Both the position numbers and the translations under genes were made by a program. This document shows, piece by piece, positions 5,798-6,758 of a DNA stretch of 64,000 bases (position 1 is its first letter; every line of letters starts with the position of its first letter). The notes beneath the pieces were generated by a model, which was not told the DNA's origin, searched no databases, and saw only the letters and a list, made by a program, of their open reading frames with translations. The DNA lies in assembly GCA_903895695.1 (NCBI GenBank), contig CAITUY010000116.1:1-64000 (forward strand), given 5' to 3'. The stretch comes from an uncultured bacterium. GTDB taxonomy: Bacteria; Verrucomicrobiota; Kiritimatiellia; CAIKKV01; CAITUY01.

Positions 5798-6005
5798 GGC
5801 GACCCTCCGGGCGAATCTGGCGAGCATGATAGTCCGATTCCGGTGCATTGGCAAATGGCGGTTCGGGGGAAACGGGCCGCGTAGACTAAGGATTTTGTGC
5901 GCAGGGTTTCAGGGGATTCCCCATAGGCGCCCTGTCAGGAATGGGTTAGGTTCAATGCTCATGGGACAGGCTACCGTGTGACCGGAGCCGTGCGATACAA
6001 TACGA

Positions 6006-6758
6006 ATGAGCGCTAGTACACAGACATGTCGGGCCAAGGTGCTGCTGGCGGATGAAGGCGGACTGCATCTCCGGCCTGCCGCCAAGCTGGTCACCGTGGC
6101 CAGCCAGTTTGATTCCGAGATATTCCTCGAGCACGAAGGCCGAAGGGCCAATGGGAAGAGCCTGCTCAGTGTCGTCATGTTGTGCGCGGAAGTGGGCGCG
6201 CGGCTAACCGTACTGGCTAAGGGTCAGGATGCACCGCAAGCGGTCAAGGCGATCCGCCACCTGTTCAAACGTTTGTTCGGCAACACGTCGGACGTCTCGG
6301 TCGGGGCCCCCGTCCTCGCGGCAGCAAGCTTGGCCGGAAGTGAGGCGGCAGTTCCGGCGACGGTTCTGGCGGCCACGTCGCGCGGCCGGCGATCGGCTGC
6401 GCTCGGCGGAGAGTTCCCGGAATCGACGGGTTTTGCGGCAGGCGGCGACGCCGCAAGTGCGGGTGAGGAGGCATCGGCGTCTAGGTCGAGGCCGGCTCGA
6501 ACGGTCAAGAAGATCCACACGTTCGTGTTCACGCCGGAGAGCCCGGCGAAAGACGTGAGCGTGGCCGGGGAGTTCAGCCAGTGGGATTTGTTGCCAATGG
6601 CGTACAGGAACGGCGTATTCCAAGCCAGCGTAAGGCTCGCGCCTGGAGTCTACCCGTATAAATTCGTCGTCGATGGGCAATGGATCGAGGACCCGACATG
6701 CGCCGAGTGCGTCCCCAACGGTCTTGGAAGCACGAACAGCGTAGTTCGCATTGAGTGA
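6006..6758 (+). CDS. HPr domain fused to a CBM48 (AMPK-type glycogen-binding) domain
   Basis: The 250-residue protein joins two recognisable domains. Residues 1-95 form an HPr-like domain with the active-site block GLHLRPAAKLV (His21, Arg23) and a regulatory-serine region NGKSLLSVVML (Ser52). A low-complexity Ala/Gly/Ser/Arg linker spans about 96-167. Residues 168-250 are a CBM48/E-set domain like AMPK beta. All five glycan-contact positions known from AMPK beta1 appear kept: Trp193, Lys219, Trp226, Leu240 and Asn244. The inferred role is a phosphorylatable PTS-type carrier or regulator that docks on glycogen or another alpha-glucan. No enzyme I, HPr kinase or glycogen gene lies nearby. No Shine-Dalgarno precedes the ATG; a TACAAT element at 5996-6001 hints at leaderless expression. 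Confidence 0.85.
   Translation: MSASTQTCRAKVLLADEGGLHLRPAAKLVTVASQFDSEIFLEHEGRRANGKSLLSVVMLCAEVGARLTVLAKGQDAPQAVKAIRHLFKRLFGNTSDVSVGAPVLAAASLAGSEAAVPATVLAATSRGRRSAALGGEFPESTGFAAGGDAASAGEEASASRSRPARTVKKIHTFVFTPESPAKDVSVAGEFSQWDLLPMAYRNGVFQASVRLAPGVYPYKFVVDGQWIEDPTCAECVPNGLGSTNSVVRIE

Follow-up and report, generated by a model that had tools for sequence, protein, structure and literature searches.

The window, the whole stretch of 64,000 nucleotides analysed here, comes from an uncultured bacterium of the class Kiritimatiellia and contains on its forward strand an open reading frame (ORF) of 250 amino acids at positions 6006-6758, with its ATG at 6006 and its stop codon at 6756-6758. The ORF joins an HPr domain to an AMPK-type carbohydrate-binding module (CBM) and sits between a divergent yceH-like gene and valS, both annotated in this analysis. 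Its features are as follows.

6006..6758, + strand: HPr-CBM fusion gene, 250 aa (domain matches and homologous two-domain ORFs)
6033..6269, + strand: HPr domain, aa 10-88 (PF00381, 83.4 bits; fold match to 3ihs, TM 0.89 on the target)
6066..6068, + strand: codon of His21, equivalent to the phosphocarrier His-15 (His in six of seven fusions, Tyr in G455)
6159..6161, + strand: codon of Ser52, equivalent to Ser-46, the HprK site (Ser in seven of seven fusions)
6270..6524, + strand: predicted disordered linker, rich in Ala, Gly and Ser, aa 89-173 (pLDDT mostly below 55 in residues 100-160)
6465..6471, + strand: GAGGAGG, the linker's strongest Shine-Dalgarno-like site, with no start codon after it
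6525..6752, + strand: AMPK-type carbohydrate-binding module (CBM48/PF16561), aa 174-249 (51.8 bits; fold match to 1z0m, TM 0.95 on the target)
6582..6584, + strand: Trp193, aligned with AMPK beta1 Trp100 (alignment to 1z0n and fusion alignment)
6660..6662, + strand: Lys219, aligned with AMPK beta1 Lys126 (alignment to 1z0n and fusion alignment)
6681..6683, + strand: Trp226, aligned with AMPK beta1 Trp133 (alignment to 1z0n and fusion alignment)
6723..6725, + strand: Leu240, aligned with AMPK beta1 Leu146 (alignment to 1z0n; L, M or F in the other fusions)
6735..6737, + strand: Asn244, aligned with AMPK beta1 Asn150 (alignment to 1z0n and fusion alignment)

Both domains are intact. The Pfam model PTS-HPr (PF00381) matches amino acids 10-88 with 83.4 bits (E = 1.2e-23; cut-off 23) and is covered from position 3 to 80 of 81, while the HPr family TIGR01003 of NCBIfam matches with 73.7 bits against a cut-off of 47.9. 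His21 lies within the motif GLHLRPA and Ser52 within GKSLL, as a preliminary description of the locus had it, and Arg23 is present as the equivalent of Arg-17. The C-terminal half matches AMPK1_CBM (PF16561) over amino acids 174-249 with 51.8 bits (E = 9.9e-14; Pfam cut-off 26.8); with the general CBM_48 model it falls below the cut-off (16.8 vs 22.4 bits), which three other fusions exceed. A phmmer search of the PDB led from the N-terminal half to HPr chains and from the C-terminal half to AMPK beta chains. The protein stops with the CBM, at residue 249-250, and the C-terminal region of AMPK beta that binds the alpha and gamma subunits is absent. In an AlphaFold2 model built from an 82-row alignment, block-mean pLDDT is 86-98 at residues 1-90 and at least 94 from residue 171 on, residues 90-160 lie below 70 and mostly below 55, and pTM is 0.48; the model is one of two well-folded domains on a disordered tether. 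By Foldseek, the predicted N-terminal domain superposes on HPr 3ihs (TM 0.89 on the target, rmsd 1.2) and the C-terminal domain on the AMPK beta1 CBM 1z0m (TM 0.95 on the target, rmsd 1.2). The HPr and AMPK-type CBM assignments, first made from the letters alone, are borne out by family models above their cut-offs and by these fold matches, and the low pLDDT between the domains agrees with the disordered linker proposed at the same time. Upstream, inspection of 5981-6008 revealed an ATG without a Shine-Dalgarno sequence and a TACAAT a few bases before it, at which a promoter scan gave no match; the transcript could be leaderless.

Both domains recur, above their Pfam cut-offs and in the same order, in six further ORFs; these come from five other genomes that span two classes within the phylum. 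One each is found in G001, G002 and G004, which belong to the window genome's own family, one in G455, from the Lentisphaeria, and two in G630, of the same family as G455; the Lentisphaeria and the window genome's class are sister classes. Linker length across the fusions is 24-79 aa. All 346 available genomes of the window's class and all 198 of the Lentisphaeria were scanned, along with sampled genomes from elsewhere in the phylum, and in this set the fusion amounts to seven genes in six genomes. It is therefore rare, as had been suspected, and its confinement to one species can be rejected, since two classes carry it. A scan of GTDB contigs gave single-domain matches only among the best 80 listed. 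Two scans of viral contigs returned no HPr-CBM fusion, and a viral origin was set aside.

Aligned with 1z0n by HMMER, the window protein places its five putative glycan contacts opposite W100, K126, W133, L146 and N150 of AMPK beta1. None of the seven fusions departs from Trp193, Lys219, Trp226 or Asn244, and the Leu240 position is L, M or F. The preliminary claim that all five contacts fall on conserved residues thus holds for the alignment throughout, and for conservation among homologues at four positions, Leu240 being the exception. The equivalent of T148 is Ser242. In AMPK beta1, mutation of W100, K126, W133, L146 or T148 markedly reduces glycogen binding (PMC2642990), and in PTST both Trp equivalents, tested jointly, are needed for starch binding (PMC4339375). 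On the HPr side, Ser52 and Arg23 are invariant (7/7), and His21 is kept in six fusions and replaced by Tyr in that of G455. The residue after the His is Leu or Met in the fusions; this is compatible with an enzyme I (EI) partner, because planctomycete HPrs encoded directly before EI share it.

The fusions are of common descent. In the CBM tree (n = 108) the seven fusion CBMs fall into one clade of ten (support 98/86), and in the HPr tree (n = 88) the seven fusion HPrs belong to a single twelve-member group (80/84) that is distinct from the 31 HPrs adjoining hprK. Both trees, which rest on about 80 columns, share one split, with G001, G002 and G004 on one side and the window gene, G455 and G630 on the other; independent recent fusions are disfavoured, since both halves cluster with this matching split. 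A few unfused HPrs and CBMs sit inside the fusion groups of both trees, and the window's HPr half is most closely related to another HPr of its own genome, unfused and encoded on contig C201 (62% identity). The trees are most simply read as a single ancient fusion followed by losses. Repeated fusion, losses or re-fusions are also possible, because the support of the HPr group is just 80/84 and unfused members occur in both trees.

Separate HPr and CBM genes also occur side by side. In G013 a CBM gene with its own ribosome site follows an HPr gene after 25 bp on the same strand and in the same frame; in G114 a receiver-HPr (REC-HPr) gene is followed by a CBM gene overlapping it by ATGA; and in G631 the gene of a PRC-barrel/CBM protein begins 184 bp after an HPr gene. 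The latter protein (L256:632-1774) carries its AMPK-type CBM at its end. Chance would yield approximately 0.03 HPr-CBM neighbours among 35 non-canonical HPr genes (P ~4e-6 for those observed), an estimate that assumes three CBM genes per genome and becomes P = 0.002 under a deliberately generous assumption; the 35 loci were not sampled at random, and these statistics are guides. Since fusion and adjacency both occur, the two parts appear to work together. The fusion would have arisen when adjacent hpr and cbm genes, such as relatives still have, lost the stop codon that separated them.

The linker may retain a trace of such an origin. In five of the seven fusions (G001, G004, G455 and both of G630) an in-frame ATG stands right after a near-perfect Shine-Dalgarno sequence, in G455 as AGTAAGGAGGCGGAA-ATG. 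Each of these sites takes first or second place when all codon positions of its gene are ranked, and is stronger than that of any ATG-started ORF of at least 200 aa in the neighbouring DNA examined. When the upstream codons were recoded synonymously, the P values were 0.16, 0.018, 0.011, 0.035 and 0.16 for the five relatives and 0.86 for the weak site of G002, with a combined P of 0.002. In the window gene, GAGGAGG (6465-6471) occupies the place of the relatives' Shine-Dalgarno and ATG, and the start codon is missing. As the simplest reading, the linker site would be the old ribosome site of a formerly separate cbm gene, and in the five relatives it may still yield a free CBM product.

Gene order around the fusions varies. 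Those of G001 and G004 precede a homoserine-kinase-like gene (thrB); downstream of those of G002 and the first copy of G630, and on one strand with them, come kaiC, two kaiB and a PAS histidine kinase gene in that order, in G002 with a NarL-type regulator after these; that of G455 is located after PAS kinases; and the second copy of G630 adjoins a GvpL/GvpF gene and an NtrC-type regulator. The GvpL/GvpF gas-vesicle protein, directly downstream of this copy, is encoded at L253:5998-6750. Across the seven fusion loci neither a constant neighbour gene nor an adjacent glycogen-metabolism gene was found. A KaiBC link as a general rule is unsupported, with two of the seven fusions so placed and KaiB in 5 of 22 related genomes. 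The window's own genome encodes kaiC, two kaiB and a PAS histidine kinase on contig C86 (1-9540; L285), with a NarL-type regulator nearby; the contig ends just upstream of kaiC.

More widely in the phylum, HPrs are often fused to two-component proteins or encoded beside them, which speaks for a regulatory role. HPr-receiver fusions lie in G114 (L214:3957-4709), G060 (L310:4944-5795), G007 (L037:735-1490) and G180 (L216:4377-5036), and HPr genes are found behind PAS-kinase/NarL pairs in G005, G086 and G013. Because one fusion has Tyr for His, Ser is universal, the HPr branch is separate and two-component genes are repeatedly neighbours, the data point to regulation rather than sugar phosphotransfer. 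Of the earlier suggestion of a PTS-type carrier or a target of Ser-kinase signalling, the phosphotransfer half is the weaker one, given the Tyr of G455 beside a Ser kept in 7/7, the separate branch and the two-component context.

The preliminary description had noted no partner kinase or EI in the window; in the genome as a whole both exist, with hprK, a canonical HPr gene and EI in a row on contig C94. The genome has four EI-type genes, five HPr genes (four besides the fusion), two full glycogen phosphorylases (GlgP) with strong matches and two GT5 glycogen-synthase-type matches. HprK was found in all 22 genomes compared, in 21 of them above the cut-off. Since HPr of E. coli binds and regulates glycogen phosphorylase (PMC11046441; PMC5320558), this enzyme is the first candidate client. 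Further HPr types were encountered along the way. An HPr-like protein of the window's genome (C209:59438-59674; L005/L042) has HARVAA replacing HARPAA by the active-site His and a very long branch in the HPr tree, and a divergent type with the motifs GIHCRPSA and DLRSLL is encoded at L290:4504-4821, L308:3916-4233 and, in the window's genome, L004:1495-1821. In G001 and G004 this GIHCRPSA type is flanked by a sensor protein on one side and an NtrC-type regulator on the other.

The window protein resembles HPr (PtsH, PF00381/TIGR01003) in fold, in its His-15 and Ser-46 equivalents and in the Arg two residues past the His, but adds a C-terminal domain of glycogen-binding type; in the fusions, Leu or Met replaces the Ala that follows the His in PtsH, and they are not encoded with EI or HprK and form a separate HPr branch. 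Crh of B. subtilis is an HPr-like regulator with Gln in place of His-15 and without a second domain; the fusion of G455, with Tyr for His and the Ser kept, is the sole one to fit this pattern, whereas the window protein retains His21. With the glycogen-binding domain of AMPK beta (PF16561, CBM48) the protein shares the predicted fold (TM 0.95) and the glycan-contact residues, here attached to HPr and not to a Ser/Thr kinase complex. In PTST and other plant CBM48 targeting proteins (PMC4339375), a CBM48 likewise brings another function to an alpha-glucan, although PTST targets starch synthase and the window protein carries an HPr domain. In the E. coli HPr-glycogen phosphorylase complex, HPr acts directly on glycogen metabolism by binding the enzyme, without a CBM, whereas the window's HPr would sit on the polymer. 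Known HPr fusions (FruB/MTP, DhaM, IIA-HPr and HPr-EI; PMC2405797) likewise build HPr into a longer chain, but there it is joined to PTS components or DHA-kinase phosphodonors and not to a module that binds glycans. Each domain is thus well known and their combination apparently undescribed: a search of the open literature, which leaves most subscription journals outside, found no work joining HPr with CBM48 or a glycogen-binding domain, and no description of the fusion's relatives or of the linker start.

We favour, with moderate confidence, the reading that the protein is a regulatory HPr docked on alpha-glucan inside the cell; that it binds glycogen and is phosphorylated, which partner it has and in which direction it exerts control are all inferred. 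Judging by its fold and residues, the AMPK-type CBM would bind glycogen, and the flexible linker would hold the HPr domain at the surface of the glycogen particle. HPr kinase/phosphorylase would set the HPr switch through Ser52 in line with the cell's energy status and glycolysis, and in most members EI would also set it via His21 according to PEP state, as suggested by both sites being intact and by HprK and EI being encoded in the genome. Recognition of the fused HPr by HprK or EI is assumed, because its branch differs from the hprK-linked one. Depending on the switch, a partner in glycogen metabolism would be bound or released, most simply glycogen phosphorylase by analogy with E. coli. The original idea of an HPr tethered to alpha-glucan thus gains support from the predicted fold and the contact residues; against docking count the lack of any fusion beside a glycogen gene, the varying neighbours, the one member without His and the fact that CBM48 modules can lose glycan binding or serve protein contacts.

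Among the alternatives, a two-component adaptor deserves the most weight, though clearly less than docking. The HPr domain would then contact sensor kinases, receivers or KaiC, and the CBM would be a module that binds proteins or just lends stability, glycogen not being its ligand. It would account for the phylum's HPr paralogues fused to receivers or encoded behind PAS-kinase/NarL pairs, for the G002 and G630 fusions upstream of kaiC-kaiB-PAS kinase genes and for the absence of the phosphocarrier His from one fusion, but it leaves the glycan contacts kept in 7/7 fusions without a purpose, as a non-binding module would not need them, and the window gene and the fusions of G001 and G004 have no such neighbours. 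A glycogen-level sensor, in which glycan occupancy of the CBM would alter HPr phosphorylation by HprK or EI and so report stored carbon, seems to us unlikely: AMPK, which is inhibited by branched glucans via its beta subunit (PMC2642990), offers a precedent, its contact residues are conserved in the fusions and HprK is present in 22/22 genomes tested (21 above cut-off), yet the long disordered linker and the pTM of 0.48 give no sign of a fixed HPr-CBM interface to transmit binding.

It is improbable that the protein is a usual phosphocarrier of the sugar PTS whose C-terminal domain is mere decoration. Its active-site His and Arg are kept in 6/7 fusions and EI genes are present in the genome, but in the tree the fused HPrs stand separate from the one encoded in the hprK-hpr-ptsI operon, no fusion adjoins EI and one has no His. 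We give hardly any credence to an artefact or a decayed gene, whether by assembly join of two genes or by chance read-through. Separate halves do occur in G013, as ORFs in one frame divided by TGA, but read-through there was set aside, since the CBM gene has its own ATG and ribosome site. Because six more two-domain ORFs exist in five independent genomes, the window ORF is neither chance nor an assembly join; the seven independent fusion ORFs, their concordant trees and conserved residues refute the artefact. The doubts raised at the outset over domain identity, over the contacts in homologues and over a sequencing join have therefore not materialised.

The docking reading can be extended, speculatively and with little confidence, to a bacterial AMPK-like glycogen sensing, in which a glycogen-stationed, phospho-switchable HPr would link the energy signals of HprK and EI, and in some lineages a KaiBC clock-like module and sensor kinase, to stored carbon; the nested gene would yield, besides the full HPr-CBM protein, a free CBM that starts inside the linker and competes for glycogen, and the window's lineage would have lost the internal start codon and kept the ribosome site.

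HPr is a central carbon-status switch of bacteria and glycogen one of their main carbon stores, and HPr-CBM probably ties energy signalling to stored glycogen. An AMPK-type glycogen-docking module would here be used by an unrelated bacterial energy-signalling system, and the old question of PTS-state control over glycogen becomes directly testable with one small protein. The finding also opens the way to a group of regulators built on HPr, with fusions to CBMs or receivers and genes near KaiBC, in the Lentisphaeria and a sister class.
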